NCBI GenBank assembly: GCA_902799685.1
Contig: CADCBO010000003.1
Span: 62,001 to 126,000 of the forward strand
Reading direction: 5' to 3'
Source: an uncultured Bacteroidales bacterium
GTDB lineage: Bacteria > Bacteroidota > Bacteroidia > Bacteroidales > Bacteroidaceae
Length of the DNA: 64,000 nucleotides
Shown: positions 3,402 to 63,590 of the stretch, piece after piece
Numbering within the stretch: the first letter of the stretch is position 1
Layout of the letters: each line of letters opens with the position of its first letter
Notes under the pieces: generated by a model
What the model was told of the DNA's origin: nothing
The model's input: only the letters and a program-made list of their open reading frames with translations
The model's database searches: none
Made by a program: the position numbers and the translations under genes

Positions 3402-3667
3402 AGGGGCACAAAGGGGACGGTTCTTTTTGTGCCCCTATCCAAGAGAACTTTTGGGGTATCAGTATCTGAAACTACGCGCCTTACGGCGCTATCCCTCCCA
3501 TCCCTAATAAGACGCTCTGAAAGGCATGAGTAAACTCCTACCTTCCAGAGCATCTTCTTAGGCACGGGCCCCTCCCGTTCACAAGCCCACGGGCGGCCAT
3601 GGTTTCCGATACCGATACCAGTTCTCTTGGATAGGGGCACAAAAAGAACCGTCCCCTTTGTGCCCCT
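3402..3667. repeat. 266-bp inverted repeat with two GGGGACGGTTCT palindromes (BIME-like)
   Basis: Bases 3402-3449 and 3620-3667 are perfect 48-bp inverted copies of each other. Each arm begins with a 35-nt unit that is itself a hairpin: AGGGGCACAAA, then core GGGGACGGTTCT, then TTTTGTGCCCCT. Complementarity continues inward with mismatches (GGTATC-rich segments at about 3453-3472 and 3601-3619), and the centre holds another imperfect pair around 3507-3526 and 3541-3560. The whole gap between the GH43 stop and the AbiE promoter is this element. The layout resembles a BIME made of two REP units. It could end transcription from GH43 and insulate abiE. Confidence 0.85.
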
Positions 3668-3715
3668 CCAGCTTAAGAAAGTATGAGAATCTTTTATTTT
3701 GTTTCCAAAAATCAC

Positions 3716-3723
3716 TATATTTG
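3716..3723 (+). promoter_or_regulatory. Bacteroidota -7 box upstream of abiEi
   Basis: TATATTTG fits the Bacteroidota TAnnTTTG -7 consensus and lies 27 bases before the chosen abiEi ATG. A clear TTTG -33 box at the right distance is not evident; the region there is T-rich. It starts just outside the inverted repeat. Confidence 0.55.
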
Positions 3724-3750
3724 CAGAGTTTTAGAAACAAAACGCGCATA

Positions 3751-4368
3751 ATGGACTTTCTGACATTCAAGGAACGGATGTATCCGATGGGGTGTTTCAA
3801 CATCAATCAGGTGCTGTTATGGGAGAAGGATTTTGACCGTAACAATCTGACGCGATGGTGTAATAGAGGGTTGCTGGTTAAGTTGAGGAACCAGCATTAT
3901 GCTTTTCCCGAGTATCGGAAGGAACCGGATTTTTCACGCTATGTAGCAAATCGTATCTATGCGCCTTCATATATCAGTCTGCATAGTGCCTTGTCGTTTT
4001 ATGGGATGATTCCTGAAGAGGTGATTCAACTGACTAGTGTGACTACTCTTAAAACCGCCCGGTTTGAGAATGCCTTTGGTACTTTCCATTATCAGAACGT
4101 TAAGACGCCGCTCTATTTCGGTTATGAAATAAAGACGATGCAAAACGGGCGTGGCCTGCTATTTGCCACACCTGAAAAGGCTCTACTTGATTTGCTCTAC
4201 CTGAATCCCTATTATAGGACTGAGCAGGATATGGAGGATTTACGTCTGGATGAGGATTATATGCAGAATGAACTTAATACAGAACGTTTAATGAGCTTCC
4301 TGGCAAGATTTGAGAGCAAGACACTGGAACAGAAATTAAGACGCTTAATGAAGGTTTACGAACTATGA
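3751..4368 (+). CDS. abiEi: AbiEi-family type IV antitoxin / transcriptional regulator
   Basis: A 205-residue protein with an N-terminal winged-helix-like region (FNINQVLLWEKDFDRNNLTRWCNRGLLVKLRNQHYAF, split here only by description) followed by an AbiEi C-terminal domain, including the motif ATPEKALLDLLYL near residue 140. AbiEi proteins repress their own operon and counteract the AbiEii nucleotidyltransferase toxin without binding it. The ATG at 3751 is chosen because it follows the -7 box; the frame is open further upstream but that part overlaps the inverted repeat. The stop overlaps the next start in ATGA, which indicates translational coupling, as usual for this pair. Confidence 0.85.
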   Translation: MDFLTFKERMYPMGCFNINQVLLWEKDFDRNNLTRWCNRGLLVKLRNQHYAFPEYRKEPDFSRYVANRIYAPSYISLHSALSFYGMIPEEVIQLTSVTTLKTARFENAFGTFHYQNVKTPLYFGYEIKTMQNGRGLLFATPEKALLDLLYLNPYYRTEQDMEDLRLDEDYMQNELNTERLMSFLARFESKTLEQKLRRLMKVYEL

Positions 4369-5150
4369 TAGACATTGAATACATACGCAGTTTTTTTCCG
4401 CCTGCAATAGCCCGCGAGAGCCGTTTTGACCGATATATGCTCAAGGAGTATCTGCAGCTGATGATACTTGATTATATTGCGACTACGCCTTATATTGGCA
4501 AGATATCATTTATAGGAGGAACAAACCTACGGCTAATACAAGGAATTGACCGTTTTTCGGAGGATCTGGATTTTGATTGCAAGGAAATGAGCGCCGAAGA
4601 GTTTGTTGCTATGACAGACGGTGTGGTGAGATTTTTGCAGCAGAACAACATTGATGTTGAAACCCGGGATAAGGATAATCCAAGAATGACGGCATTCAGA
4701 CGCAATCTTTATTTCCCTGAGATGCTGTTCAATTTGGGACTGACAGGTCACAAGGAAGAAAGGTTTTTGGTGAAAATAGAGGCACAGGATCAAGGCGTTC
4801 TTTATGAGCCGGAAATTGCCAACATCAACAGGATGGGCTTTTTCTTTGGTGTTCAGGTGCCGCCGATAGATGTGCTTTGCGCCATGAAGTTTGCAGCAAT
4901 CCTGGCAAGGGCCAAGGGACGCGATTTCTATGATGTCATTTTCCTGCTGTCAAAGACCAAACCAAACATGGACTTTCTTTATGCCAAAACCGGTATTACA
5001 TCTATGGAAGGTCTAAAAACTGCAGTTGCAGAACGGCTGCATGATATTGACTTGAACAAGAAGAAGCACGATTTCTTTCATTTGGTCTTTAATGAGCAGC
5101 ACGCAGAAATAATCTTACAGTTCCCTGGTGTTGTGGCTGATTTGCTTTGA
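4365..5150 (+). CDS. abiEii: AbiEii-family nucleotidyltransferase toxin
   Basis: A 261-residue toxin of the AbiEii/AbiGii (DUF1814-type) nucleotidyltransferase family. The active-site signature is visible: FIGGTNLRL near residue 48 and RFSEDLDFD near residue 63, the G-T/S and DxD elements of the Pol-beta-like fold. A later KFAAILARAKGRDFYDVIFLL segment contains the conserved lysine, arginine and R-D-xYD motif of the family. Members transfer nucleotides to tRNA or otherwise inactivate a nucleotide-dependent target and cause reversible growth arrest, with roles in phage abortive infection and stabilisation of mobile DNA. Both genes look intact. Confidence 0.88.
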   Translation: MIDIEYIRSFFPPAIARESRFDRYMLKEYLQLMILDYIATTPYIGKISFIGGTNLRLIQGIDRFSEDLDFDCKEMSAEEFVAMTDGVVRFLQQNNIDVETRDKDNPRMTAFRRNLYFPEMLFNLGLTGHKEERFLVKIEAQDQGVLYEPEIANINRMGFFFGVQVPPIDVLCAMKFAAILARAKGRDFYDVIFLLSKTKPNMDFLYAKTGITSMEGLKTAVAERLHDIDLNKKKHDFFHLVFNEQHAEIILQFPGVVADLL

Positions 5151-5906
5151 CTATTCAATCAGCTCAAAGTGCTGGAAGTCTTTGGTTGATTTCCAGTTAC
5201 CGCCCCATTCAAATCCGGCTTGGGTAAAGAGACGGTAACAGAGGTCGCTGTGGTCTATTTTGTAGGGGAATGTCTTGGTGCGGTCGCAGTACTGGGCTGC
5301 TGTGGCGGGCTGAATAAGGCGTGTGCCGTCAGCGCGATCCTTGTAATAGGGATTATACAGGGGGTTGATGTCAATGGCCAGCCCGCGGGCGTGCTTGGAG
5401 AGCTTGGTGCTGCCTGAAACGGCGCGATAGCAGAAACATGATGAGTTGTTGTCACGCATCTGAGTCTCGTCATCGGCGTCATATACATCGGGCAGGAGCA
5501 TGCGCTGGATAGGGTAGCGGGCATCAAACAGCTGGTGCAGTATGCTGACCACACGATCAGCAATTATGGCATTGCAAATCATTTCACCCACATGAATCTG
5601 CTCATCATAGTCCCAATGCAGTGCGCGTATGTGGCGCAAGTCACTGAGGCCGATATAAGGGTTATCCTTATAACTCTTGCCTTGCATGCGCTGCCACACG
5701 CCATCAGGAATGGGCTCTACCGCAAAACACTTGTCAATGCCGCCAAAAGCCTCAACCACATCGGCCGATACAGTCTTTCCCGCCTGCCACTCTTGCAGAA
5801 CCGTAGTATCAATGCTGTTCTGATTGCTGCGGGATGCACAATATATAGTTGTGAATGCACCACAGGCCAGCGTGACGGAAAGCACCAGTTTGATACTCTT
5901 TTTCAT
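5151..5906 (-). CDS. M15-family metallopeptidase (peptidoglycan peptidase)
   Basis: A 251-residue exported zinc peptidase. The first ~25 residues are a signal sequence (KKSIKLVLSVTLACGAF) without a good lipobox. Zinc ligands are visible in SKHARGLAIDINP (His and Asp, about residues 171-178) and in DFQHFE near the C-terminus, the M15 pattern HxxxxxxD...HxE. Family members cut L-Ala-D-Glu or D-Ala-D-Ala bonds in peptidoglycan peptides. It is the last gene of a two-gene minus-strand unit, eight bases after the Gfo/Idh/MocA gene. A function in cell-wall turnover is likely, and the pairing with a sugar oxidoreductase hints at amino-sugar or peptidoglycan recycling, which is inference. Confidence 0.82.
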   Translation of the reverse strand: MKKSIKLVLSVTLACGAFTTIYCASRSNQNSIDTTVLQEWQAGKTVSADVVEAFGGIDKCFAVEPIPDGVWQRMQGKSYKDNPYIGLSDLRHIRALHWDYDEQIHVGEMICNAIIADRVVSILHQLFDARYPIQRMLLPDVYDADDETQMRDNNSSCFCYRAVSGSTKLSKHARGLAIDINPLYNPYYKDRADGTRLIQPATAAQYCDRTKTFPYKIDHSDLCYRLFTQAGFEWGGNWKSTKDFQHFELIE

Positions 5907-5914
5907 TTATTCAT

Positions 5915-6883
5915 TCAATCCATGGGATAGACCACACCCCACTGTTTGCGTAGTCTGTCCATTATCTTCATGATTTCAAGAGTTTCCTGATGCGGCATAT
6001 AGGGTGATTCAAGCCATCCGTTCTGAAGAGCCTGCTTGCAGGCCAGCACCTGATATTCATAACCTGTAATCTGGCCGGCAGGTTTGTCAAAGTGTGCAAC
6101 AGGCTTGTAATCGTTGTAAACGGTAATGCTCTGAGGGCAATTGATGTTATCCACAAGCAAATAACCTTCAGTGCCGCATATCTGGCCTATTCGGCCGCAC
6201 AGACAGAGTGCGCTGGATTGGATGTTGGCAATACGGCCGTCACTGTATGACCAGCTTATGGAGTTGTGCATATCCATTCCGGTGCTGCTCTTGATGCAGT
6301 TGGATGTCTCGTTTATGATATCGGCCCCAAAGTACATGCGGCAGAAATTGATGCTATAGACACCCAGGTCCAAAAGTGCGCCGCCGCAAAGGTCGGGCCT
6401 GAGTATGCGCTCCTTGAACTCCATCATATAGCAGAGGCTGGCATTGAGCAGACGCGGTTTACCTATGGCTCCGCTGTCAAGCAGCTCCTTGACTTTCATG
6501 GAAAGCGGCATATAGCGGGTCCAGATAGCCTCGGTTATGAATATACCTTTCTTGTGAGCCAGGTTGAGCAGGGCATCGGCCTCACGTGCATTGGCGGTGA
6601 AAGCCTTCTCGCAAAGCACCGGCTTGCCCGCATTTATGGCCAGGCTGGCATGCTCAAAATGGTGGGAGTGGGGCGTAGCCACATAAACCAGGTCCACATC
6701 AGGGTCCTCAACCATCTCCTTGTAGGAGCCGTAAGCTTTCTCAAATCCCCAGTAGCGCGCAAACTCCTGAGCGCGGCCCAGGTCACGTGCAGCAATTGCA
6801 TACTTCATCGACGGGTCCAGTCCTGTAAGGGTCTCACCCATCTTGTCGGCTATCCAGCCGGCTCCGATAATTCCTATTTTCAT
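5915..6883 (-). CDS. Gfo/Idh/MocA-family NAD(P)-dependent oxidoreductase
   Basis: A 322-residue cytoplasmic oxidoreductase. The N-terminal Rossmann fold starts with KIGIIGAGWIADKM (glycine-rich nucleotide loop), and the catalytic-lysine motif appears as CEKAF instead of the common EKP. The C-terminal half is the alpha/beta substrate-binding domain with GGALLDLGVY. The sequence resembles the dihydrodiol dehydrogenase-like branch (WTRYMPL, GGALLDLG). Substrates of the family are sugars, inositols or related polyols; which one cannot be read here. It is the promoter-proximal gene of a two-gene operon with the M15 peptidase, divergent from blaI. Confidence 0.85.
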   Translation of the reverse strand: MKIGIIGAGWIADKMGETLTGLDPSMKYAIAARDLGRAQEFARYWGFEKAYGSYKEMVEDPDVDLVYVATPHSHHFEHASLAINAGKPVLCEKAFTANAREADALLNLAHKKGIFITEAIWTRYMPLSMKVKELLDSGAIGKPRLLNASLCYMMEFKERILRPDLCGGALLDLGVYSINFCRMYFGADIINETSNCIKSSTGMDMHNSISWSYSDGRIANIQSSALCLCGRIGQICGTEGYLLVDNINCPQSITVYNDYKPVAHFDKPAGQITGYEYQVLACKQALQNGWLESPYMPHQETLEIMKIMDRLRKQWGVVYPMD

Positions 6884-6912
6884 ATCCGGTAAGGTTAGTA
6901 ATTATTGTAGTG

Positions 6913-6920
6913 CGAATATA
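6913..6920 (-). promoter_or_regulatory. -7 box of the oxidoreductase/M15 operon
   Basis: Read on the minus strand this is TATATTCG, one base off the TAnnTTTG consensus, 30 bases upstream of the oxidoreductase ATG. Three ATTCAAT/ACTCAAT repeats lie just upstream of it (6930-6957). Confidence 0.45.
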
Positions 6921-7022: not shown

Positions 7023-7046
7023 CAGCGTTAACTTAACAAAACAGTT

Positions 7047-11446: not shown

Positions 11447-14400
11447 ATGGCATTGAAGAAGTATAAGAAAGTGCTGCTGCTTGGATCGGGCGCACTCAAG
11501 ATAGGTGAGGCAGGCGAGTTTGATTACTCCGGTTCACAGGCTCTTAAGGCCCTGAAGGAGGAGGGCATAGAGACCATCCTTATCAACCCCAACATTGCTA
11601 CGGTTCAGACCAGCGAGGGTGTTGCCGACAGAGTTTATTTCTACCCTGTAACCCCGTTCTTTGTAGAGAAGGTAATTGCCAAGGAGCGTCCCGATGCAAT
11701 CCTGCTGGCATTCGGTGGTCAGACCGCACTTAACTGCGGTGTGGCACTGGAGCAGAGCGGTGTTCTGGCCAAGTATAAGGTAAAGGTGCTGGGTACCCAG
11801 GTTAAGGCCATTATGGATACTGAGGACCGTGACCTCTTTATCAAGCGTTTGGATGAGATAGGCGTACAGACCATCAAGAGTCACGCAGTTGAGACCATGG
11901 ACGATGCACGTGCAGCTGCACGTGAACTGGGCTACCCGGTTATCATCCGTTCCGCATACGCTCTGGGCGGTCTGGGCTCGGGTTTCTGCGACAATGAGGA
12001 GGAACTCAACAAATTGGCCGAGAAGTCATTCTCATTCTCACCGCAGATTCTTGTTGAGAAGAGCCTCAAGGGCTGGAAGGAGATTGAGTTTGAGTGTGTG
12101 AACGACAAGAGCGGCAACTCTATCATAGTCTGCTCAATGGAGAACTTTGACCCGCTGGGCATACATACCGGCGAGAGTATCGTGGTTGCTCCCACACAGA
12201 CACTTACTCACCACGAGGTGCAGAAGCTGGAGGAACTGACCATCCGCATAGCCCGCCACGTGGGTATAGTAGGTGAGTGCAATATCCAGTTTGCATTCGA
12301 TCCCCAGAGCGAGGATTACCGCGTTATTGAGGTTAACGCCCGCCTGAGCCGCTCATCGGCCCTGGCATCAAAGGCTACCGGTTATCCTCTGGCATTCGTG
12401 GCCTGCAAGCTGGGTTTGGGCTACAACCTTTATGAGCTTAAGAACTCCATCACCAAGGATACTACCGATTTCTTTGAGCCCTCTGTTGACTATGTAGTCT
12501 GCAAGATACCGCGCTGGGATCTGAGCAAGTTCCACGGTGTGGATCGCGAGATAGGCTCATCAATGAAGTCCGTAGGTGAGGTTATGTCTATCGGCCGCAG
12601 CTTTGAGGAGGTTATCCAGAAGGGTATCCGTATGATTGGTCAGGGCATGCACGGATTCGTGGAGAACAAGAGCATCAAGTTTGCCGATCTGGACAAGGCG
12701 CTCAAGGAGCCTACCGACAAGCGTCTGTTCGCAATCAGCCAGGCATTCAGCGAGGGCTACACCATAGACCGTATCTATGAACTTACCAAGATTGACAAGT
12801 GGTTCCTGAACCGCCTGAAGGGTATTGTTGACCTGTCCAAACAGCTGCACAAGGTTAAGGGCATCGAGGCTCTGGGCGAAGACCTGTTGCGCAAGGCCAA
12901 GAAGATGGGATTCAGCGATTTCCAGATTGCACGTGCCATCGGTGAGGAGAAGAAACTGGGCACACAGGCCGGTCTTCTCTCTGTACGTAACAAGCGTAAG
13001 AGTCTGGGCATTGTTCCTTACGTTAAGCAGATAGATACCCTGGGCGGTGAGTATCAGGCCAAGGAGAACTACCTGTATATGACTTATAACGGCTGCGCTC
13101 ACGATATACCGTTCTTTGATGACAAGAAGTCTATCATCGTAATAGGCTCTGGTGCATATCGCATCGGTTCTTCGGTAGAGTTTGACTGGTGCGGCGTTCA
13201 GGCTCTGAACACCGTCCGCAAGGAGGGCTACCGCAACATCGTGATCAACTGCAACCCTGAGACCGTAAGTACTGACTACGATGTTACAGACCGTCTGTTC
13301 TTTGACGAGCTTACGTTTGAGCGCGTTATGGATATCATAGAGTTGGAGAATCCCTACGGCGTGATTGTATCAACCGGCGGACAGATTCCCAACAACCTGG
13401 CTATGAAGCTTGACGCCATGAACGTGCCTATCCTGGGTACAAGCGCCAAGGACATCGATAATGCCGAAGACCGCGAGAAATTCTCGGCCATGCTTGACCG
13501 CATAGGTGTTGACCAGCCGGAATGGAGCGAGCTTACCTCAATGAAGGAGATTGGCAAGTTCATAGACAAGGTTGGATTCCCCGTACTGGTACGTCCGTCA
13601 TACGTGCTCTCAGGTGCTGCCATGAACGTTTGCAGTAACCAGGAGGAGTTGGAGCGTTTCCTGCAGCTGGCCGCCGAGGTATCAAAGGAGCATCCGGTTG
13701 TAGTAAGCCGCTTTATTGAGAACGCCAAGGAGGTTGAGATGGATGCCGTTGCCAAGGACGGTGAAATCATTGCATATGCCATCAGTGAGCATATTGAGTT
13801 TGCCGGCGTACACTCAGGTGATGCTACTATCCAGTTCCCGCCTCAGAAACTCTATGTAGAGACAGTTAAGCGCATCAAGCGCATCAGTCGTCAGATTGCC
13901 AAAGAACTCCATATAAACGGTCCTTTCAATATCCAGTATCTGGCTCGTGAGAACGATATCAAAGTTATTGAGTGCAATCTGCGCGCTTCACGTTCATTCC
14001 CGTTCGTGAGCAAGGTGCTCAAGATCAACCTGATTGAGATTGCAACCAAGATTATGCTGGGCATTCCTGTAGAGGCACCTGAGAAGAGCCTGTTTGATAT
14101 CGATTATGTTGGTATAAAGGCTTCACAGTTCTCATTCAACCGTTTGCAGAAGGCTGATCCCGTGCTGGGTGTTGATATGGCATCGACCGGTGAGGTGGGC
14201 TGTCTGGGTGATGACCAGCGCTACGCTATCCTGGAGTCAATGTTATCGGTCGGTTATCGGATTCCTAAGAAGAACATCCTGCTCTCAACCGGTACAGCAA
14301 AGCAGAAAGCCAGTATGCTTGATGCTGCCAAGATGCTTACTGCCAACGGATTCAATATCTATGCTACAGGCGGTACAGCAAAGTATCTTGAGGAGAACGG

Positions 14401-14674
14401 TGTTCCAAATACCCGCGTTTATTGGCCCAGTGATGAGGGACAGCAGCCGCAGGCTCTTGATATGCTGCACAACAAGCAGATTGATATGGTGGTGAACATT
14501 CCTAAGAATCTCACTCAGCACGAGCTTACCAACGGCTACAAGATCCGTCGTGCAGCCATTGACCTGAACATCCCGCTGATTACCAACGCCCGTTTGGCCA
14601 GCTCGTTCATCAATGCGTTCTGCACCGTCAACATAGACGACATCCCCATCAAGAGCTGGGACAGCTTTAAATGA
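11447..14674 (+). CDS. carB: Carbamoyl-phosphate synthase large subunit
   Basis: A 1075-residue synthetase that makes carbamoyl phosphate from bicarbonate, ammonia and two ATP, feeding pyrimidine and arginine synthesis. It has the duplicated layout expected: first ATP-grasp half (about 1-400), oligomerisation segment (about 400-550), second ATP-grasp half (about 560-935) and a C-terminal MGS-like allosteric domain (about 940-1075). The first-half ATP-binding motif reads IIRSAYALGGLGSG, the form seen in eukaryotic CPS I/CAD-type enzymes rather than the common bacterial RPSFTLGG. Together with the altered carA this places the pair in the CPS I-like lineage (inference). The stop codon is inside a 39-bp palindrome. 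Confidence 0.95.
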   Translation: MALKKYKKVLLLGSGALKIGEAGEFDYSGSQALKALKEEGIETILINPNIATVQTSEGVADRVYFYPVTPFFVEKVIAKERPDAILLAFGGQTALNCGVALEQSGVLAKYKVKVLGTQVKAIMDTEDRDLFIKRLDEIGVQTIKSHAVETMDDARAAARELGYPVIIRSAYALGGLGSGFCDNEEELNKLAEKSFSFSPQILVEKSLKGWKEIEFECVNDKSGNSIIVCSMENFDPLGIHTGESIVVAPTQTLTHHEVQKLEELTIRIARHVGIVGECNIQFAFDPQSEDYRVIEVNARLSRSSALASKATGYPLAFVACKLGLGYNLYELKNSITKDTTDFFEPSVDYVVCKIPRWDLSKFHGVDREIGSSMKSVGEVMSIGRSFEEVIQKGIRMIGQGMHGFVENKSIKFADLDKALKEPTDKRLFAISQAFSEGYTIDRIYELTKIDKWFLNRLKGIVDLSKQLHKVKGIEALGEDLLRKAKKMGFSDFQIARAIGEEKKLGTQAGLLSVRNKRKSLGIVPYVKQIDTLGGEYQAKENYLYMTYNGCAHDIPFFDDKKSIIVIGSGAYRIGSSVEFDWCGVQALNTVRKEGYRNIVINCNPETVSTDYDVTDRLFFDELTFERVMDIIELENPYGVIVSTGGQIPNNLAMKLDAMNVPILGTSAKDIDNAEDREKFSAMLDRIGVDQPEWSELTSMKEIGKFIDKVGFPVLVRPSYVLSGAAMNVCSNQEELERFLQLAAEVSKEHPVVVSRFIENAKEVEMDAVAKDGEIIAYAISEHIEFAGVHSGDATIQFPPQKLYVETVKRIKRISRQIAKELHINGPFNIQYLARENDIKVIECNLRASRSFPFVSKVLKINLIEIATKIMLGIPVEAPEKSLFDIDYVGIKASQFSFNRLQKADPVLGVDMASTGEVGCLGDDQRYAILESMLSVGYRIPKKNILLSTGTAKQKASMLDAAKMLTANGFNIYATGGTAKYLEENGVPNTRVYWPSDEGQQPQALDMLHNKQIDMVVNIPKNLTQHELTNGYKIRRAAIDLNIPLITNARLASSFINAFCTVNIDDIPIKSWDSFK

Positions 14675-14707
14675 TACAATTGGGGTCAGACCCCTTTTGT
14701 ATCATTT
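14669..14707. repeat. Palindrome with GGGGTCAGACCCC core overlapping the carB stop
   Basis: A 39-bp near-perfect palindrome: outer arm AAATGATACAA at 14669-14679, core GGGGTCAGACCCC, outer arm TTGTATCATTT at 14697-14707. The carB stop TGA (14672-14674) is inside the left arm. An identical 39-bp copy is at 16148-16186. In RNA it would form a strong hairpin followed by T residues, so it may act as a terminator or RNA end stabiliser. Confidence 0.9.
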
Positions 14708-14723: not shown

Positions 14724-16148
14724 ATGAAACACTCGGTATTGAAATTTTTGTTCAGATACATGATATCAGGAGTTATCATGGCATCATGCTCTCAGAATGT
14801 ATCTGCACAATATCAGATGCTTGTCAAAACCGATGATGGTTTGTTGTACCCGTTCAATGTGGATAGAATTGAAAGTGTTTCATTTCTAGAAGTGGAGCCT
14901 AATGAGAATGACATTGACCTGTCTGTCCAGACAATATGGACAGGAAAAAGCATAGCATGGTTCGGAACATCCATACCAGCCGGTACAAGCGCTTTTCGTG
15001 TTCCTATCAAGGGAAATGCCATCAGTGTATATGATTCTTATAAAGTAACTGAGAAATACTTTACAAAAGATGAATATCTGCTGTCTGAATATCCGGTCAT
15101 AGCTGCCTCCCTTATTGGTGCAAAAGAGATACACAACGAATCTCAAGGTTCATCAAGGATTACAAGAAACGCTACTGATCCAAGGTTGGAGATACGCTGT
15201 AAGGCACTTACAAATACGGTTCAGGAGATATGTTCATATGTATGGGGAAGTTATGATATAGATATCGCTGACAGGACTTATAGAGAGAACCATGATAACA
15301 CCATAGGTGTCACGACCTTTCTTACTACTACAGGAACATGGAAAAACTTTGTTGACATGGTATGCGTATGTCTTCGTCAATCATACCAGATATGTCTGAC
15401 GTTAAGACATCTGATAAGCGACGAAACGCAGAGGTCAAGGTATACTGCTGACATCTTTGGTGACTATTATGATGATGTCGCGAATTTGTTGTCATCTGTA
15501 GGATATACGATGGATGATATAGCAGGTTATCATGCTATTGACCTGTTTGTGATTGAACATTCGGTAAATGACTCATATACTTTCATGTATCCGTTCTCCA
15601 ATTTTTCTGTTGATAGTGAAGATGTCAATGACTTTTATGGGGCATATAACAAGATAATCAGCGAGATATTAAAATACAAACCATCTGTAAGAATTGCTAT
15701 TATATCCAATTGTGGAAAGACATCCATAGAGAATGCCGATCATGAGGATAAAGTGTCATGTCTTAAACGCATAGCTGAAAAGTGGCAGTTGCCTTTTTGT
15801 CAGATGGATTTATATACTAATGTCCAATGGGTAAGTCAACTGACTCAGGGATATTGGGACAAAGAACACTATTGGCACGACAGCGGATTTGAGTGGACGG
15901 AGGATGTTGAGAATGACTCATTTACCACCAATGCTACTTTCAATGCCGCCTTTTATGATGAAAGTCTTGCTGTAATGAAGGCCAAAATCAATCCACAAGA
16001 GATAAACGGTGTTTGGTATTGGGAGGCACCATCCGTGTATCTGTGGATGTTTGATGCACTTCACCCTCATTCTGATAAAAGCGGGAGGTTGACAATACTG
16101 ATAGCCAGAGTGCTGTCTAAATGGCTCTTAACTATCGGAAATATCTGA
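14724..16148 (+). CDS. SGNH/GDSL-type hydrolase, secreted
   Basis: A 474-residue exported protein. The signal peptide ends near MASCSQNVSAQ, possibly a lipoprotein (Cys22). A short beta-rich segment follows (LVKTDDGLLYPFNVDRIES), then an SGNH-hydrolase-like domain: block I appears as IAWFGTSIPAG (nucleophile Ser in GTS), block III as EHSVNDS (the Asn of GxND), and block V as DALHPH (Asp and His). Such Bacteroidota proteins (DUF5040-like) are probable carbohydrate or lipid esterases; the substrate is unknown. The gene is more AT-rich than carB and the amylase and lies between two identical palindromes, which suggests it was inserted as a cassette. Confidence 0.7.
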   Translation: MKHSVLKFLFRYMISGVIMASCSQNVSAQYQMLVKTDDGLLYPFNVDRIESVSFLEVEPNENDIDLSVQTIWTGKSIAWFGTSIPAGTSAFRVPIKGNAISVYDSYKVTEKYFTKDEYLLSEYPVIAASLIGAKEIHNESQGSSRITRNATDPRLEIRCKALTNTVQEICSYVWGSYDIDIADRTYRENHDNTIGVTTFLTTTGTWKNFVDMVCVCLRQSYQICLTLRHLISDETQRSRYTADIFGDYYDDVANLLSSVGYTMDDIAGYHAIDLFVIEHSVNDSYTFMYPFSNFSVDSEDVNDFYGAYNKIISEILKYKPSVRIAIISNCGKTSIENADHEDKVSCLKRIAEKWQLPFCQMDLYTNVQWVSQLTQGYWDKEHYWHDSGFEWTEDVENDSFTTNATFNAAFYDESLAVMKAKINPQEINGVWYWEAPSVYLWMFDALHPHSDKSGRLTILIARVLSKWLLTIGNI

Positions 16149-16186
16149 AATGATACAATTGGGGTCAGACCCCTTTTGTATCATTT
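16148..16186. repeat. Second identical GGGGTCAGACCCC palindrome at a convergent gene junction
   Basis: Base for base the same 39 bp as 14669-14707. Its first base is the last base of the SGNH hydrolase stop codon, and its right arm contains the stop codon of the convergent amylase gene (16181-16183). It is the only sequence between these convergent genes, so it is the natural place for termination from both sides. Confidence 0.9.
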
Positions 16187-17854
16187 CTGCCATTTAAGGA
16201 TTACGCCTGATTGGGCGGGGACTGTGAGGCGGATGGGGAAGTCGGGGTGGAGGTTGGTCAGGAAGGTTTGCCCTGAGAGTAAATCTTTGACCTTTACGCC
16301 GTCCTGGGCTTTGAGATTCATGTAGTCAAAGGCATGCTGGGGGATGTTTACGGCGGTGTAGAGCGGCTGGTCTGTGAAGTTTGTCACTACTAGGATGGCG
16401 TCGTGGCCGTCGGAGCGCAGGAATGCGTACTGGCGGTGAGGGTTGAAATCCGATGACTGCGGATTTACGTACATCAGGTCAAAGAACTTGCCGTCACGTA
16501 TTGCGTTCTCCTTATTGCAGATACCCAGCAGAGTGGAGTAGAAGTGCCTGAGTTCACGCTCCTGTGCGGTGAGTTTTGCATCGTCCCACTTGCCGTCATT
16601 GAAAAGGCGGGTAAGAGTATCGGGAGCCCAATAATCGAATATTGTGGTACGTCCGTCAAGACCGCTGAATCCCTCCTGGTCCATACCGGGTTCGCCAACC
16701 TCCTGACCGGCGTAAACCATTACAGGACAGCCATCCATAAGGGCCGAAACTATCATGGCGGGACGTCCTTTTTGCGCGTTTCCACCGAAGAATCGGGATG
16801 CTACACGCTGCTCGTCATGGTTCTCCATAAAGTGGAGCATGTGCGGACCGTTCTGTCCGTTCTGCTGCCAGCAACGGGTGATTGCCGTGGCCGATTCACG
16901 GGACTCAACGACAGCGCGCAGGGTATCGTAAAGGCCAACCTTGTCATATATGAAATCAAATCCGCCCCAGTCGATGTATGAACCGTATGATCCGGGGTTG
17001 TAAATCTCGGCTATGAACTGTATGCTTGGATGAGCCTCTTTTACTTGACTGATGGCCCAATGCCAGAAGTCAACGGGTACCATCTCGGCCATATCACAGC
17101 GGAATGCATCAATGCCTTTTGCCGCCCAGTAGAGCAGTATGTGGAGCATCTTCTTCCAGGTGTCGGGAATGGGGTCGAAACAGTGTCTGCCGCCGCCTGT
17201 GTAATCAACTCCATAGTTTAGTTTTACAGTCTCATACCAATCTGAATATGAAGGAGTTGCAGTGAACTGGTCATTGCCTGTGGCACGTGCCGGGAACTCC
17301 TTGTAATCACCCCAGTTTACCTCTCCGCCAAGTGTCTGTCCGGGCAGATAATAGAAGTTGTTCTTCGGTGAGAAATGCAGGTTCACGTCATCGTCTTTTC
17401 CCAGGTCTTTCACTCCTTTGGGCTTGGCTATGGAATGATACTCGCGGGCCACATGATTTGGCACAAAATCCATGATGAATTTCATGCCTGCAGCATGGAC
17501 GCGGTCCACCAGAGCCTGGAACTCTGACATACGGTCAGGAACTGACTCGGCCAGGTCCGGATCGATGTCATAATAGTCACGGATGGCGTAGGGCGAGCCG
17601 GCAATTCCCTTTACGGTTTCAGGGTGTGACAGAGGAATCCTGTATTTCTTATAGCTGGTGCATGAAGCATGGGCTATGAGTCCGGTGAACCAGATATGAG
17701 TAACTCCCATCCGCCTGATGTTGTCAAGCACGATGGGAGTATAGCTGTTAAGTTTGCCGGAACCGTTTTCCTGGATGCTGCCGCCGGGGATATTCTGCCC
17801 GCCGCTGTTGCAGCAAAGACGTGTAAATATCTGATATATAACGGCTTTATCCAT
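16181..17854 (-). CDS. GH13 alpha-amylase family protein, cytoplasmic
   Basis: A 557-residue GH13 enzyme starting MDKAVIYQIFTRL, without a signal peptide. GH13 conserved regions are visible: DFVPNH (region I), DAFRCDMAEMVP with the nucleophile Asp (region II), FIAEIYN with the acid/base Glu (region III) and FMENHDEQR with the transition-state Asp (region IV). A C-terminal beta-sandwich domain ends in LILKWQK-like sequence. It probably degrades or remodels alpha-glucans such as glycogen or maltodextrin in the cytoplasm. It lies seven bases downstream of fabD on the same strand, so the two may share a transcript. The stop overlaps a palindrome. Confidence 0.88.
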   Translation of the reverse strand: MDKAVIYQIFTRLCCNSGGQNIPGGSIQENGSGKLNSYTPIVLDNIRRMGVTHIWFTGLIAHASCTSYKKYRIPLSHPETVKGIAGSPYAIRDYYDIDPDLAESVPDRMSEFQALVDRVHAAGMKFIMDFVPNHVAREYHSIAKPKGVKDLGKDDDVNLHFSPKNNFYYLPGQTLGGEVNWGDYKEFPARATGNDQFTATPSYSDWYETVKLNYGVDYTGGGRHCFDPIPDTWKKMLHILLYWAAKGIDAFRCDMAEMVPVDFWHWAISQVKEAHPSIQFIAEIYNPGSYGSYIDWGGFDFIYDKVGLYDTLRAVVESRESATAITRCWQQNGQNGPHMLHFMENHDEQRVASRFFGGNAQKGRPAMIVSALMDGCPVMVYAGQEVGEPGMDQEGFSGLDGRTTIFDYWAPDTLTRLFNDGKWDDAKLTAQERELRHFYSTLLGICNKENAIRDGKFFDLMYVNPQSSDFNPHRQYAFLRSDGHDAILVVTNFTDQPLYTAVNIPQHAFDYMNLKAQDGVKVKDLLSGQTFLTNLHPDFPIRLTVPAQSGVILKWQK

Positions 17855-42375: not shown

Positions 42376-44685
42376 ATGATAGATTACCAGCAGGAACTTA
42401 ATCCAAGCCAGAGAGATGCCGTTCTCTATACAGAGGGCGACAGTATGGTCATTGCAGGCGCCGGTTCCGGAAAGACACGTGTGCTTACATACAAGATTGC
42501 CCACCTGCTTGAGGAGGGCGTCGAGCCTTGGGCCATATTGGCGCTCACCTTTACAAACAAGGCGGCCGGAGAGATGAAACAGCGCATAGCCGCCCGTGTG
42601 GGAGAGAACCGTGCCCGCTATCTCTGGATGGGCACATTCCATAGTATATTCAGCAGGATACTCCGTTCCGAATCCGCCAGCATTGGTTATACATCGAATT
42701 TTACCATATATGACCAACAGGATAGCCAGAACCTGATAAAATCCATTATCAGGGATATGCAGCTTGATGACAAGACTTATAAGCCCAGTGTGGTGCAGAA
42801 TCGCATATCGAACGCCAAGAACCGCCTGATAACGGCATCGGGTTATGTCCAGAACGCCGATATTTATAAATTTGACCAACTTAAGCGCATACCAATGGTT
42901 GGCAAGATATATGAGCGTTACGACCAGCGTTGCCGTCAGTCCGATGCCATGGACTTTGATGACCTGCTGCTTAATACATTCATACTGTTCCGCGACAACC
43001 CTGATGTGTTGGAGCGTTACGGAACAACATTCAGGCATATTCTGGTGGATGAGTATCAGGATACCAACTATGCCCAGCACTGCATAGTGTGGCAGCTTAC
43101 AAGAAACGGAGCCAATGTCTGTGTGGTTGGCGATGATGCGCAGAGCATCTACTCGTTTCGCGGAGCCAATCTGGACAACATGCTCAAGTTCTCCAAGCTC
43201 TATCCTGATTCAAAGCTGTTCAAACTGGAGCAGAACTACCGCTCCACTCAGACCATAGTTGAGGCGGCCGGCAGTCTTATATGCAAGAACCACGCCCAGA
43301 TTCCAAAGAAAGTGTTCTCGGAGAATGAGCAGGGCGACAAGATAAAGGTGCTGTGCGCCCATTCTGATAAGGAGGAGAGCGAGATGGTGGTGAACCGTTT
43401 GCTTGACCTGCATACTTTCAATGATGTGCCATGGAGCCAGATGGCCGTACTGTACCGTACCAACGCCCAGTCACGTGCGTTTGAGGAATCGCTGCGCAAA
43501 CGCGGCCTTCCTTATAAGATATATGGTGGTCTGTCATTCTATCAGCGTAAGGAGATCAAGGACGTGATTGCTTATTTCCGCATGAGCGTGAACCCTAATG
43601 ACGAGGAGGCTTTCAAGCGCATAATCAACTATCCTGCCAGAGGAATTGGACAGACCACTATTGGCAAGATTCTTTCTGCTGCAATGGAGAATGGGGTGAG
43701 TCTTTGGACTGTTGTCAGCAATCCTGCCCAATACAGTCTGGATGTGAATTCAGGCACAGCATCAAAATTATCAGGTTTCTGTAAGATGCTGGAGAGTTTC
43801 ATTGCTGATGCATCCACGCGTACCGCAAAGGAACTGGCAGACCGCATTATGAGTGAGACCGGCATTATGCATGAACTGAGGTCAGATACAACCGTTGAAG
43901 GTGAGGGGCGTCTGCAGAATGTGGAAGAACTGATCAACAATATTGCGCAATTCTGCAAGGACCGTCAGGAAGAGGGGAACGACCAGCTCTTTATGCGTGA
44001 TTACCTGAGCGAGGTTTCATTGATGACAGATCAGGATAATGAGACCGAAGAGGATGTTGAGAAGGTTACATTGATGACCGTTCATTCCGCAAAAGGCCTG
44101 GAGTTTGATGCTGTGTTCATAGTGGGCCTGGAAGAGCATCTGTTCCCCAGTGACATGTGCGGTGATGACGAGCGGCAGATAGAGGAGGAGAGAAGGCTGT
44201 TGTATGTGGCAATGACCCGCGCCCGCAAGTATCTGACCCTGCTTTTTGCAACCACGCGTTTCCGTTATGGCAATGTGGATTTCTGCACTCCCAGCAGGTT
44301 CCTAAAGGACATAGATTCGCGTTACCTCAATATGTCAAGTGAAGGCATCAAATCATCTTGGAGCAGCAGCAACGTGCCATTGGGGACGGTTCTCTTTGGC
44401 TCGAATCAGAATAAGACGTTTGAAAGTAAACCTTCTTTCGAGCCAAAGAGAACCGTCCCCAATGGCACGTTCCAGAAAGTAACCGAATCCATGCTTCATG
44501 ACTTTGCACCGGCTCAGTCATCGGCTCTGAAAGTGGGTAATGTGATAGAGCACGAGCGCTTCGGTATAGGCAGCGTTATCTCTATAGAAGGCTCCGGTGA
44601 CAATACCAAGGCCCGTATAAAGTTCCTTAACGTAGGAGAGAAAACCCTCCTCCTCAAATTCGCCCGCTACAAGGTGATCAAATAA
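42376..44685 (+). CDS. pcrA: UvrD/PcrA/Rep-family superfamily 1 DNA helicase
   Basis: A 769-residue 3'-5' DNA helicase for repair and replication-fork maintenance. Motifs in order: Q-motif LNPSQRDAV, Walker A AGAGSGKTRVL (about 28-38), Ia TFTNKAAGEMKQR, Walker B/II VDEYQDTN, III GDDAQSIYSFRGA, IV YRSTQTI, V TVHSAKGLEFDAVF and VI YVAMTRARKYL. A Tudor-like tail (VGNVIEHERFGIGSV) ends the protein, as in PcrA. Residues 666-699, in the linker before that tail, are encoded by a palindromic repeat (44371-44471) that keeps the frame. The linker is variable in the family, so activity is probably kept. Confidence 0.93.
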   Translation: MIDYQQELNPSQRDAVLYTEGDSMVIAGAGSGKTRVLTYKIAHLLEEGVEPWAILALTFTNKAAGEMKQRIAARVGENRARYLWMGTFHSIFSRILRSESASIGYTSNFTIYDQQDSQNLIKSIIRDMQLDDKTYKPSVVQNRISNAKNRLITASGYVQNADIYKFDQLKRIPMVGKIYERYDQRCRQSDAMDFDDLLLNTFILFRDNPDVLERYGTTFRHILVDEYQDTNYAQHCIVWQLTRNGANVCVVGDDAQSIYSFRGANLDNMLKFSKLYPDSKLFKLEQNYRSTQTIVEAAGSLICKNHAQIPKKVFSENEQGDKIKVLCAHSDKEESEMVVNRLLDLHTFNDVPWSQMAVLYRTNAQSRAFEESLRKRGLPYKIYGGLSFYQRKEIKDVIAYFRMSVNPNDEEAFKRIINYPARGIGQTTIGKILSAAMENGVSLWTVVSNPAQYSLDVNSGTASKLSGFCKMLESFIADASTRTAKELADRIMSETGIMHELRSDTTVEGEGRLQNVEELINNIAQFCKDRQEEGNDQLFMRDYLSEVSLMTDQDNETEEDVEKVTLMTVHSAKGLEFDAVFIVGLEEHLFPSDMCGDDERQIEEERRLLYVAMTRARKYLTLLFATTRFRYGNVDFCTPSRFLKDIDSRYLNMSSEGIKSSWSSSNVPLGTVLFGSNQNKTFESKPSFEPKRTVPNGTFQKVTESMLHDFAPAQSSALKVGNVIEHERFGIGSVISIEGSGDNTKARIKFLNVGEKTLLLKFARYKVIK
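44371..44471. repeat. In-frame inverted repeat with GGGGACGGTTCT core inside the helicase gene
   Basis: Bases 44371-44404 and 44438-44471 are perfect 34-bp inverted copies with a 33-base loop. Each arm contains the core TTGGGGACGGTTCT also seen at 3411-3424. The outer arm segment AACGTGCCA/TGGCACGTT is specific to this site. The 101 bases add 34 codons (residues 666-699, beginning NVPLGTVLFG) with no stop. Confidence 0.9.
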
Positions 44686-48278: not shown

Positions 48279-48349
<71 letters not shown>

Positions 48350-48351
<2 letters not shown>

Positions 48352-48379
48352 AGGTAAATTTTCTTGAAAATTTACCTGC
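48350..48379. repeat. Perfect hairpin abutting the 5' end of tRNA-Gly copy 1
   Basis: GCAGGTAAATTTTC (48350-48363) pairs perfectly with GAAAATTTACCTGC (48366-48379) around TT. It touches the first two bases of the tRNA and might influence 5' processing. Confidence 0.7.
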
Positions 48380-48456
48380 GGCGGTTTTGGGCTTCGCCTC
48401 GGCATAGTGAAAACAAGTTTTCCCTCTGCTCTCGGCTCGCACCAAAACTGCCGCAG
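48376..48456. repeat. Hairpin element (CCTCGGCATAG...CTCTCGGCT), copy 1
   Basis: Outer arms CTGCGGCGGTTTTGG and CCAAAACTGCCGCAG are complementary with one mismatch and enclose the core CCTCGGCATAG, an A/T-rich inner pair and CTCTCGGCT. A second copy with the same core but different arms is at 48806-48890. Both lie 5' of a tRNA-Gly in the direction of transcription. Confidence 0.75.
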
Positions 48457-48524
48457 AGCTCTCAGGGAAACATTTTCAGTTATTCCACTCAGATAAATTT
48501 TCCAGAATTATCAATGAACTTTGG

Positions 48525-48608
48525 TGAAGAGAATGAGACTCGAACTCACACGACATAACTGTCACTACCCCCTCAAAGTAGCGCGTCTACCAATTCCGCC
48601 ATCTCTCC
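48525..48608 (-). tRNA. tRNA-Leu (GAG)
   Basis: An 84-nt class II tRNA with a long variable arm. Anticodon stem CTACT/GGTAG encloses TTGAGGG (anticodon GAG). Acceptor GGAGAGA pairs with TCTCTTC with one G-U pair. T-arm GTTCGAGTC. CCA not encoded. Confidence 0.95.
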
Positions 48609-48615
48609 AGAGAAG

Positions 48616-48697
48616 TGCCCAGAACAGGACTCGAACCTGCACACCTCGCGGCACACGCACCTGAAACGTGCGCGTCTACCAATTCCGCCACCTGGGC
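48616..48697 (-). tRNA. tRNA-Leu (CAG)
   Basis: An 82-nt class II tRNA. Anticodon stem CACGT/GCGTG encloses TTCAGGT (anticodon CAG). Acceptor GCCCAGG with TCTGGGC, T-arm GTTCGAGTC. Seven bases separate it from tRNA-Leu(GAG). CCA not encoded. Confidence 0.95.
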
Positions 48698-48728
48698 ATT
48701 TCCAAAATAAATCAAAGATCTACTTTTG

Positions 48729-48801
<73 letters not shown>

Positions 48802-59766: not shown

Positions 59767-59778
59767 ATACATAAAATT

Positions 59779-60542: not shown

Positions 60543-60545
60543 GGT

Positions 60546-61109
60546 ATGAATACAGGAACCGTTTCCGTGCGTTACGCCAAGGCTCTGCTGCAGTATGCGG
60601 TGGAGCAGGGTGATGCTGCGCAGGTGTATCTGGAGATGCAGACGCTTGCCTCACGGATGCGGGCTGTTCGTGCCATACATGACCGTCTGGTTGACCCCAC
60701 GGTAAGCGTGGGCGATAAATGCAGCCTGCTTGAGACTGCTGTCACGGACGGAAAGAAACCGCTGAGCGGTTCTGCACAGGCTTTCTTCAAGCTCGTTGTA
60801 GGTGCCGGACGCGGTGACTGCCTGCTGTTTATGGCCGTAAGCTATCAGGACCTGTACCGCCTCAAAAATGGTATCGTGCCGGTTCAGCTTATTACAGCCA
60901 CCCCTGTGGGTGATGAACGCAGGGCGCGGCTCAAACAGCTGGTAGAGAATGTAGAGCATGGTCGTGTGGAGTGGACACACACCGTTGATCCGTCACTTGA
61001 CGGCGGATTTGTGCTTCTGGTTGATGGATTCCGCCTTGACGCCAGCGTGGCGGGCAAGCTGCAGAGAATCCGCAAGGAACTTATAGAAAAGAATAACCGT
61101 ATCATATAA
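60546..61109 (+). CDS. atpH: F1 ATP synthase delta subunit
   Basis: A 187-residue stalk subunit linking F1 and b. [21 protein letters not shown] starts the N-terminal helical bundle (not quoted in full elsewhere), and [28 protein letters not shown] is the typical C-terminal OSCP motif region. Three bases after atpF; its stop overlaps the atpA ATG. Confidence 0.94.
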
Positions 61110-62695
61110 TGGCAAACGGAATAAAGGCAAGTGAGGTATCGGAGGTACTTCTGGAACAGCTTAAGGGCATTGACACCAGCGCCAAGTTTCAGGAGGTTGG
61201 AACCGTACTCCAGGTGAGTGACGGCGTGGTCCGCATATACGGACTCAAGAATGCCGAGGCCGATGAGCTGATAGAGTTTGACAATGGCATCCAGGCCATA
61301 GTTATGAATCTGGAGGAGGATAACGTAGGTGCCATCCTGCTTGGTCCTACCGATCAGATCAAGGAGGACATGACCGTGCACCGCACAGGACGCATTGCCT
61401 CCATCAATGTAAGTGAGAACATGCTTGGCCGCGTGGTTAACCCGCTGGGTAAGCCGCTTGACGGTCTTAAGGATATAGAGGGTCCCTTCTTTGAGATGCC
61501 CCTGGAGCGTAAGGCTCCCGGTGTGGTGTTCCGTGAGCCGGTGCATCAGCCGCTGCAGACTGGTCTGCGTGCCATCGATGCCATGATTCCCATCGGCCGC
61601 GGTCAGCGTGAGCTTATAATCGGTGACCGTCAGACAGGTAAGACCGCCATTGCCATTGATACCATCATCAACCAGCGTAAGAATTATGAGGCAGGTGATC
61701 CTGTCTATTGCATATATGTTGCTGTGGGCCAGAAGGGTTCAACCGTTGCAACCATCGTGAACACTCTGCGTCAGCACGGCGCTCTGGATTACACCATCGT
61801 GGTTGCCGCAACCGCTGCCGATCCTGCAGCTTTGCAGTATTACGCTCCTCTGGCAGGTGCCGCAATCGGTGAGTATTTCCGCGATACTGGCCGTCACGCC
61901 TTAGTGGTTTATGATGACCTTTCCAAGCAGGCTGTAGCCTATCGTGAGGTGTCACTTATTTTGAAACGTCCTTCGGGCCGTGAGGCATATCCCGGTGATA
62001 TATTCTACCTGCATTCACGCCTGCTTGAGCGTGCAGCCAAGATAATCAGTCAGCAGGAGGTGGCCGAGAAGATGAATGACCTTCCGCCGTCATTGGTGGG
62101 TCACGTCAAGGGTGGCGGCTCTCTGACCGCTCTGCCTATCATCGAGACACAGGCCGGTGACGTATCGGCCTATATCCCTACAAACGTGATTTCCATTACC
62201 GACGGTCAGATATATCTGGAGTCAAGCCTCTTTAACCAGGGATTCCGTCCGGCCATCAACGTGGGTATATCGGTATCACGTGTGGGAGGTAACGCTCAGA
62301 TCAAGTCCATGAAGAAGGTGGCCGGTACGCTTAAGATAGACCAGGCGCAGTACCGTGAGCTGGAGGCATTCAGCAAGTTCAGCAGCGATATGGACCCAGT
62401 GACCGCCATGGTGCTTGACAAGGGCCGCAAGAACAACCGTCTGCTTATCCAGCCTCAGTATTCACCTATGCCGGTAGGAGAGCAGATAGCAGTACTCTAC
62501 TGCGGTATACACGGTCTTCTGAGCAAGGTTCCGCTGGACCGTGTCATTGAGTTCGAGGACCGTTTTGTGGAGATAGTACGTACCAAATACAAGGAGAATA
62601 TACTGGATGTCTTATCCAATGGAGTCATGAATGATGAGGTGGGCAAACTCATTGAGGAGGCTGCCGACAAGACAATCCAGGAATTAGGAATCTGA
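61109..62695 (+). CDS. atpA: F1 ATP synthase alpha subunit
   Basis: A 528-residue regulatory nucleotide-binding subunit. Walker [16 protein letters not shown] (about 170-184), the [14 protein letters not shown] region with the Walker B Asp, and [26 protein letters not shown] (the alpha/beta signature, described only) are intact. Length is normal. Confidence 0.97.
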
Positions 62696-62701
62696 TAAGT
62701 A

Positions 62702-63556
62702 ATGTCACTCAAGGAGATAAAGACCCGTATCCAGTCGGTCAGCAATACACGCAAGACCACATCGGCCATGAAGATGGTATCGAGCGTGAAACTGCGCAAG
62801 GCTCAGCAGAACATTCAGTTTGCCGTGCCTTACGTGAATCAGTTGGACGGTATCCTTAAACGCCTTTCGTCCGACCCTGAGGCACGTAAGGTTTCACCAT
62901 TAGTGGTGGAGCGTGATGTCAAGGAGGTTGCTATGGTCTGCTTCTCGTCCGATTCCAGCCTGTGCGGCGGTTTTAACGGCAACATAATACGCCACAGCCG
63001 CGCACTTTACAATGAACTCTACAATATTGACCAGACTCCTCTGGTATATACCGTAGGACAGAAGATAACCGATGCTTTCCGTAAGGAGGGACTGACCATA
63101 AACACAGGTTATTCCGGCATGATGCAGAGTCGCAGTTATGAGCAGGCCGCATCACTGGCCGATGACCTTATGGATATGTATCTGAACGGTCATCTGGACA
63201 AGGTGGTGCTTACTTATACCCACTTTAAGAGTGCGGGATCACAGCAGATTGTGGATGAGGTCCTGCTACCGGTTACTGTTCCTGCCGGCCAGGCGGAGCA
63301 GGAGAGTGACTACATTCTGGAGCCGTCGGCCGCAGAGCTTATGAAAGTGCTGCTGCCCAAGGTGATACGCATGAAAGTATATTGCGCCATGCTGGATTCT
63401 TTTGCCAGCGAGCAGGCTGCCCGCGTGATTGCCATGCAGGCCGCCACCGAGAATGCCGATAACCTGATTGGCGAGCTTACCCTGCAATACAACAAACTGC
63501 GCCAGCAAGCCATAACCAATGAGATACTGGATCTTGCTGCCGGCGCCCAAAAATAG
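62702..63556 (+). CDS. atpG: F1 ATP synthase gamma subunit
   Basis: A 284-residue central-shaft subunit. N-terminal coiled coil SLKEIKTRIQSVSNTRKTTSAMKMVS, split by description, with the T-xAMxMV motif, the Rossmann-like middle (FSSDSSLCGGFNGNI) and the C-terminal helix (QAATENADNLIGELTLQYNKLRQQAITNEI region). It ends the operon. The TAG stop lies inside a GGGGTCAGGCCCC palindrome. Confidence 0.96.
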   Translation: MSLKEIKTRIQSVSNTRKTTSAMKMVSSVKLRKAQQNIQFAVPYVNQLDGILKRLSSDPEARKVSPLVVERDVKEVAMVCFSSDSSLCGGFNGNIIRHSRALYNELYNIDQTPLVYTVGQKITDAFRKEGLTINTGYSGMMQSRSYEQAASLADDLMDMYLNGHLDKVVLTYTHFKSAGSQQIVDEVLLPVTVPAGQAEQESDYILEPSAAELMKVLLPKVIRMKVYCAMLDSFASEQAARVIAMQAATENADNLIGELTLQYNKLRQQAITNEILDLAAGAQK

Positions 63557-63590
63557 TACAATTGGGGTCAGGCCCCTTTTGTACTATTTT
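63550..63590. repeat. Palindrome with GGGGTCAGGCCCC core overlapping the atpG stop
   Basis: Left arm AAAATAGTACAA (63550-63561) and right arm TTGTACTATTTT (63579-63590) are exact complements around ATTGGGGTCAGGCCCC. The atpG stop TAG (63554-63556) is in the left arm. Core as in the palindromes at 14669 and 16148; outer arms differ. Probably acts as the terminator of the ATP synthase operon. Confidence 0.9.

Follow-up and report, generated by a model that had tools for sequence, protein, structure and literature searches.

We analysed a stretch of 64,000 nucleotides from an uncultured Bacteroidales bacterium (assembly GCA_902799685.1, contig CADCBO010000003.1, positions 62,001 to 126,000), referred to below as the window, in which an original prediction, made from the letters alone, had pointed to five places sharing a dispersed palindrome with a conserved core. 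According to our analysis the described sequences are present at all five places, and two palindrome families account for them. In family A the core GGGGTCAG[A/G]CCCC is framed by TACAA/TTGTA arms, and in family B GGGGACGGTTCT sits in the loop of a hairpin whose arms are of several types (GGGGCACAAA, GTGCCATT). The elements and the genes they touch are listed here in window coordinates, the gene names being those we presume from recognition of the sequence:

3402-3435, plus strand: family B hairpin, arms GGGGCACAAA, forming the left end of a 266-base composite
3436-3633, no strand: inner module of the composite, a repeat in its own right
3634-3667, minus strand: the right-hand family B hairpin of the composite, an inverted copy of 3402-3435
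11447-14674, plus strand: presumably carB (carbamoyl phosphate synthase large subunit), ending in the element at 14669
14669-14707, no strand: family A hairpin, whose left outer TGA (14672-14674) is the carB stop codon
16148-16186, no strand: family A hairpin, whose right outer TGA (16181-16183, minus strand) is the stop of the amylase-like gene
16181-17854, minus strand: presumably an amylase-like (GH13-type) gene, ending in the element at 16148
42376-44685, plus strand: presumably a UvrD/PcrA-like helicase gene, whose linker holds the pair at 44371-44471
44371-44471, no strand: inverted family B pair with GTGCCATT-type arms, in frame within the helicase gene
62702-63556, plus strand: presumably atpG (ATP synthase gamma subunit), ending in the element at 63550
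63550-63590, no strand: family A hairpin, whose left outer TAG (63554-63556) is the atpG stop codon

Three of the copies overlap stop codons, just as had been predicted, and the 266-base composite begins 6 bases past the stop of the open reading frame (ORF) at 1981-3396. Complementarity is 100% in the inverted repeats 3402-3449/3620-3667 and 44371-44405/44437-44471; with the arms as extended by the tool it comes to 89%, 82% and 89% in the hairpins at 14669-14707, 16148-16186 and 63550-63590, each of which has an inner 2x2 mismatch. Folded as single-strand DNA, four window copies reached z of -4.5 to -14.8 against shuffles.

The genome to which the window belongs (the own genome below; 2.81 Mb in 37 contigs, 85.8% complete) contains 85 exact matches to the family A core GGGGTCAGRCCCC and 62 to the family B core GGGGACGGTTCT, against 0 and 1 for the reversed control patterns, and the predicted dispersal is borne out at this scale; in the window only, with 2 mismatches allowed, the excess is modest (8 against 2.0 expected and 8 against 3.2 expected). 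With a relaxed family A core, GGGGNCNGNCCCC, 94 sites were obtained, both from the 218,221 bases of the genome fetched at first and from the 231,180 bases fetched later, among them 22 close pairs and 50 singles. The inverted-pair feature of repetitive extragenic palindromic (REP) sequences, known from REPIN and BIME, is present, 17 of the 22 family A pairs having reverse-complementary cores as read from the list. At five family B places of the own genome (C2:65770, C2:66086, C2:70466, C19:43615 and C20:68717) what follows the core is TGGACAAGCCAAGCGGC...GCCGAGCG and not the customary right half, as though a second hairpin had been swapped in.

Searching of 120 genomes, i.e. the own one, 36 congeners and 83 from outside the genus, found the ACAA-armed family A pattern in 17 of them (the own genome, 16 of the 36 congeners and 0 of the 83), TACCA-armed family A in 17 of the 37 genus genomes, and GGGGACGGTTCT in 34 of the 120, with at most 3 matches in any genome outside the genus. 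Genome-wide ACAA/TACCA matches number 74/1 in the own genome, 29/0 in G025, 35/2 in G036, 2/117 in G011, 10/57 in G002 and 31/189 in G021, where TACCA matches often score one palindromic site twice.

Each family is grouped around a Y1 transposase gene of its own. The palindromes had been predicted to be REP-like and served by an IS200-like (Y1) transposase encoded elsewhere, and the own genome indeed possesses two PF01797 (Y1_Tnp) matches over the cut-off, each lying between palindromes of its own family: transposase A at C9:87217-88074, flanked by family A pairs at C9:87151/87197 and 88077/88123, and transposase B at C2:71316-72176, flanked by family B copies at C2:71218 and 72272. The region C9:84240-90384 holds 12 A cores and one B core, and C2:65770-75811 ten B cores and two A cores. 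Both proteins contain HVH (HUH motif) and YIHQNP (Y...NP signature); their C-terminal helix-turn-helix matches were all below the cut-off (HTH_29 with E 0.19 in A, HTH_28 with E 0.077 and HTH_23 with E 0.21 in B), and a PDB sequence search with transposase A gave no match.

Across the genus a Y1_Tnp match occurs in 23 of the 37 genomes, at 42 places, and 36 transposase ORFs were recovered from the fetched loci, the remaining places being dropped. Each of the 36 has a core of one of six types in its vicinity, which a script recognised for 34 and inspection by eye for L165 and L173, where the script had missed the reversed core. Core type tracks the transposase tree: on the protein tree of these 36 it changes 7 times, against a mean of 20.0 and a minimum of 16 in 300 shuffles. 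For the 23 genes whose arm words were read by eye, these words change 10 times on the same tree (shuffle mean 15.6, minimum 11). In one clade, each of the 10 members is accompanied by two or more relaxed family A cores at a distance of up to 1,500 bases, and by no B core. A transposase near the cluster with matching arms is found for TACAA in G000, G022, G025 and G036, and for TACCA in G002, G005 and G021.

Relatives of transposase A were taken from a scan of 84,980 genomes. Among the best 80 of 420 relatives, which were kept, record titles place the genus in uncultured Bacteroidales/Bacteroidaceae, mostly of rumen and other herbivore gut, and Prevotella, Xylanibacter, Clostridia and others also occur. 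A GGG[A/T]C[A/G]G-type core is located no more than 80 bases past the transposase stop in 52 of the 74 relatives used (6 of the 80 fetched loci were dropped for having no ORF or a short flank), as against 19 of 269 background windows; for the genus set the figure is 29 of 36. Many transposase genes end on the outer trinucleotide of their own downstream hairpin. At loci L230-L249 (Clostridia, Lachnospiraceae and others) the transposases have 32-38% identity, and several have GGGGACGGTTC-like hairpins right behind the stop; since hairpins stand behind such distant transposases of other phyla, the GGGGACGGTTC-like core may be very old.

The arms of family A consist of two layers. Among the 188 arms of the 94 relaxed cores, TGATACAA occurs 81 times, TAGTACAA 43, CAGTACAA 9, AAGTACAA 6 and TGGTACAA 6 times, the others at most 3 times each; the inner arm TACAA is present in 156 of the 188, and AAAA stands in 127 beyond a variable trinucleotide, which is TGA or TAG in most arms. 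The inner five bases agree across the arms at 77 of the 94 sites. The outer trinucleotides match at 34 (46%) of the 74 sites with TACAA on both sides, where 35% would be expected if the sides were independent. A similar picture is given by 257 distinct 33-base stretches around family A-type cores, drawn from all loci fetched by then: pairing reaches 86-95% at positions 4-8 and 46-54% at the outer three. It is because of these pairing counts that we distinguish a pairing inner arm from an outer trinucleotide whose pairing is little above chance. The best explanation appears to be that the core is the older, shared part and the inner arms are a lineage-specific mark.

From the original prediction, according to which the arms differ between loci and are nevertheless complementary at each, the complementarity survives for the inner five bases, and the diversity shrinks to a short shared list of arms; the outer trinucleotide differs at 40 of the 74 sites, which goes part of the way towards the refutation by non-complementary arms that the prediction had named for itself, and the three family A sites of the window all happen to be ones with agreeing outer trinucleotides. 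The proposed copying of the local flank in inverted orientation upon insertion is rejected because the same arms recur at many unrelated loci; this shared vocabulary rules it out, and arm and core follow the transposase lineage. Correction of the hairpin or selection for its stem, which had been offered as the other options, fits the inner arm and does not fit the outer trinucleotides.

The outer TGA or TAG of family A is often the stop codon of the adjacent gene. When an upstream frame was counted if open for at least 60 codons, the 128 stop-bearing arms of the genome were entered in frame 38 times, versus 11 and 12 times in the shifted frames, and the 60 arms without a stop 8, 6 and 8 times in the three frames. 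At least one such ORF is closed by 35 of the 94 family A sites, and three sites close ORFs on both sides; through a typical family A hairpin the other two frames run without a stop. The preference for gene ends, predicted for the palindromes in general, holds for family A, where this stop-codon capture largely explains it, and takes no such form in family B, for which no frame-locked stops were found in the own genome, the stops scattering 5-29 bases from the core.

Gene ends of orthologues were compared at 30 loci per gene. The carB gene is ended by TGA at the element edge in 6 of 30 (the remaining 24 are 23 TAA and 1 TGA), with the position of the final residue constant across all 30; atpG is ended by the element's TAG in 8 of 30, all of them GAQK, the other 22 having 13 TAA, 8 TGA and 1 TAG; and the amylase-like gene by the element's TGA in 6 of 30. 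A single element between the convergent carB and amylase-like genes of G029 gives TGA to both, the elements at these two gene ends in G010 have a GGGGACGGTTCC core, and in G021 a GGGGCACAAA-armed element lies a few bases behind the stop of both genes. Directly behind the carB element of G020 and G005 stands GTAA, which would fit an original AAG TAA that was split, with displacement of the native stop. In the window a 474-aa ORF (14724-16148) is flanked by the carB and amylase-like family A elements, and in G029, with its one shared element, there is no intervening ORF.

To follow the same site across species, 500-base flanks of the own sites were matched against the congener loci that had been fetched, and both flanks were located for 25 site clusters. 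An empty site, which the original prediction had suggested looking for in relatives, does exist: one double element is missing in G017, and its flanks are joined there. The single hairpins amount to 101 sequences from 23 loci of 14 genomes, 34 of which rest on one flank. Of the 101, 70 have A.T and 31 have C.G as the variable inner pair, and no mismatched pair was seen, although the search pattern permitted mismatches; both states were met at 12 of the 23 orthologous loci. The state of the inner arm is alike in 127 of 238 same-locus pairs (shuffle mean 135.6) and in 493 of 523 same-genome pairs (mean 298.7). For the left outer trinucleotide these figures are 157 (mean 93.6) and 191 (mean 204.2), and for the right one 128 (mean 65.8) and 186 (mean 143.3); as the last value was reached by 5 of 1000 shuffles, the right trinucleotide carries some genome signal too. 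The core with its neighbouring bases is above chance both by locus (41/238, mean 14.6) and by genome (85/523, mean 31.9). Away from the transposase cluster, outer identity is 0.74/0.66 where the inner arm changed and 0.73/0.69 where it did not, and at L374, L390 and L391 hybrids with one new and one old arm are found. We read this as replacement of the inner arms in place at orthologous sites, a reading which the sampling partly favours.

From the information discussed above we suggest that the palindromes are probably non-autonomous REP-like elements of several Y1/HUH single-strand transposase lineages, closest to TIRYT (RAYT group 1). The transposase would act on folded single-stranded hairpins, and insertion just ahead of a stop would be tolerated when the outer TGA or TAG falls in frame, because the other two frames would pass through the hairpin; the native stop would be shifted behind the element and then decay. 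Old sites might later be overwritten by the element version current in the genome, and such overwriting would keep the inner arms matched while the outer frame remains with the site. We may tentatively propose that it is the transposase that rewrites the old sites, swapping the inner hairpin for the version of the current lineage and leaving the outer frame (A run, stop codon, TAC) in place. Replacement could proceed by excision and reinsertion, by transposase-driven exchange or by recombination between copies, and at some sites there may have been two hits.

A number of points weigh against this interpretation. Loci were chosen by arm type in six genomes (G020, G022, G017 and G008 via ACAA, G002 and G009 via TACCA), because of which the figures for the same arm in the same genome are inflated, and we down-weight both 493/523 and 250/250; support independent of that choice comes from gene-anchored loci, transposase flanks and the genome-wide ACAA/TACCA matches. 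The shuffle tests ignore relatedness, and several inner branches of the three-gene species tree are weak. Near the transposase cluster the identity of the right outer trinucleotide falls from 0.56 to 0.34 when the arm changes, and the inner pair at position 7 is imperfect, being Watson-Crick in 93% of the 257 distinct stretches. Arms and genomes do not always agree: G020 and G022 are mixed (ACAA/TACCA 16/32 and 48/47), the G020 transposase has TACAA, yet two of the cluster sites of this genome have TACCA, the family A transposase of G017 is accompanied by GCCAA arms in a genome with 19 ACAA and 4 TACCA matches, and the transposase match search found none in G008 or G009. The NCBIfam REP transposase model stays under its cut-off with both own proteins (47 and 55 versus 80 bits), and no movement was observed, the basis being the empty site and sequence comparison.

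Other explanations deserve to be weighed against a rewriting transposase. Recombination between copies, by gene conversion or template switching, could spread a common version with no transposase involved, and both the hybrids of L374, L390 and L391 and the mixing of core variants inside genomes are what it would produce; however, the homology available is only ~30-40 bases, and away from the transposase cluster the outer trinucleotide is equally kept whether or not the inner arm changed, which would be a sharper edge than is expected of conversion tracts, so that we find this route rather doubtful. Independent insertions into the same hot spots, i.e. into a short preferred target such as gene ends and A runs, would agree with the presence of other families at the carB and amylase-like gene ends, in G010 with its GGGGACGGTTCC core and in G021 with GGGGCACAAA arms past the stops. 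What makes them unlikely is that unusual outer trinucleotides persist at a given site from species to species around an interior that varies: the atpG site has TAG both left and right in 7 of 8 genomes, and the right side of site S67 is CGG or CAG in 7 of 8.

Compensatory mutation under selection would leave the original element where it is and let the arm bases change in turn, the pairing being selected for transposase binding, termination or mRNA protection. In favour of it, six sequence pairs at four loci (S7, S56, S69 and S93) differ solely in the A.T/C.G arm pair, but mismatched intermediates number 0 of 101 (about 7% of the 257 distinct stretches are non-Watson-Crick at that position), the change is a double transversion met at 12 of 23 loci, and differences often extend to the core and to the two bases next to it; the stepwise course is the less likely one, and we regard it as quite improbable. 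Hardly credible is the view that these are ordinary intrinsic terminators or RNA hairpins, evolved at gene ends and immobile. Family A has the fitting shape, a stable hairpin then a T run on both strands, and the fitting position; such an origin has to face a conserved core at 85 places clustered around cognate transposases, the empty site, in-frame copies inside the helicase gene and the confinement of the ACAA-armed pattern to the genus, with 0 of 83 sampled genomes outside having it. Termination may be a further role of the mobile hairpins.

Among mobile elements, the insertion sequences of the IS200/IS605 group use a Y1/HUH enzyme with a hairpin substrate, as the elements described here would do. 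Near-identical transposase copies typical for them were not found in the own genome (85.8% complete), whose two genes are diverged and belong to different tree clades. In our opinion the elements work like REP/RAYT and are probably nearest to TIRYT. TIRYT genes are flanked by repeats sharing GGGGWSAS (Di Nocera 2013, PMC3733652), which is matched by GGGGTCAG of family A and by GGGGACAG, and from which GGGGACGG of family B deviates at one base, having G where A is expected. As in TIRtrons, a Y1/HUH gene lies between inverted repeats, and gene copy number is low. A 2018 TnpA survey (PMC6006769) assigns 20 of 26 TIRYTs to subclass 2.1, equates this subclass with RAYT group 1 of Bertels 2017 and, in its account of the subclass, reports no REP-like sequences there; in contrast, the hairpins found here are dispersed, with 85 and 62 exact core copies. 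In addition, and unlike in TIRYT, the arms here mark the lineage, and one site can have different arms in different species.

With proteobacterial REP/RAYT systems (REPtrons, REPINs; PMC2817692, PMC3686654, PMC3116915, PMC8266576) our elements share dispersed palindromes with many inverted pairs, one cognate transposase per family, coevolution and location of repeats near the transposase gene, and they differ in an outer TGA or TAG on both sides, a palindromic core and separate inner-arm and outer layers. The GT[AG]G foot of REP/RAYT was seen in 4 of 188 family A arms, and because of its absence we keep the elements apart from canonical REPs. GTAG REPs often give a TAG stop and are found in repair genes, including UvrD/REP helicase (Di Nocera 2013, PMC3733652); here, likewise, TAG stops are supplied and a pair of copies lies inside the UvrD/PcrA-like helicase gene. 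Coevolution of REPs with their transposases and an 'orthoswitch' of REP classes come from Nunvar 2010 and 2013 (the latter PMC3686654), the 2013 text offering no more than speculation on its mechanism. As in the orthoswitch, orthologous transposases are paired with different classes and new classes spread; in that model (PMC3686654) old copies decay as new ones spread, whereas here the new inner arm is present at the old sites themselves. Replacement of arms in place was not found described in a literature search covering few subscription journals; searching for GGGGACGG palindromes gave unrelated matches only, and for REP elements together with Bacteroidales and rumen nothing.

Several further features of the window may be added. 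The composite's inner module (3436-3633) is imperfectly self-complementary, and the fetched part of the genome has similar stretches at ~8 further places, these being bracketed by family B copies; one of them (C12:28980) adjoins a family A core. The 266-base composite gave no match when compared with plasmids, and right behind it an adjacent ORF pair at 3658-5150 resembles a putative AbiE-type antitoxin and nucleotidyltransferase pair. In the helicase linker the in-frame palindromic inserts vary among congeners and are missing from others (loci L473-L502), the carriers being, by eye, at least 7 of the 20 aligned (own, G007, G015, G021, G022, G025 and G036). Four tRNA genes lie on the minus strand at 48279-48801; Rfam at gathering thresholds found in the window four tRNAs and no match at the hairpins, and on 3300-3800 it gave three matches, all far under the gathering scores.

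If the suggested rewriting is true, a change of transposase lineage would be followed by a site-by-site change of arms that remain complementary. REP-like families change in sequence while staying matched to their transposase, and this genus lets the core, the inner arm and the outer frame be followed separately in that process. The analysis also adds abundant dispersed hairpins to what is apparently a transposase group surveyed as being without REP-like sequences; moreover, housekeeping genes, for instance carB and atpG, are seen to receive their stop codons from an element.

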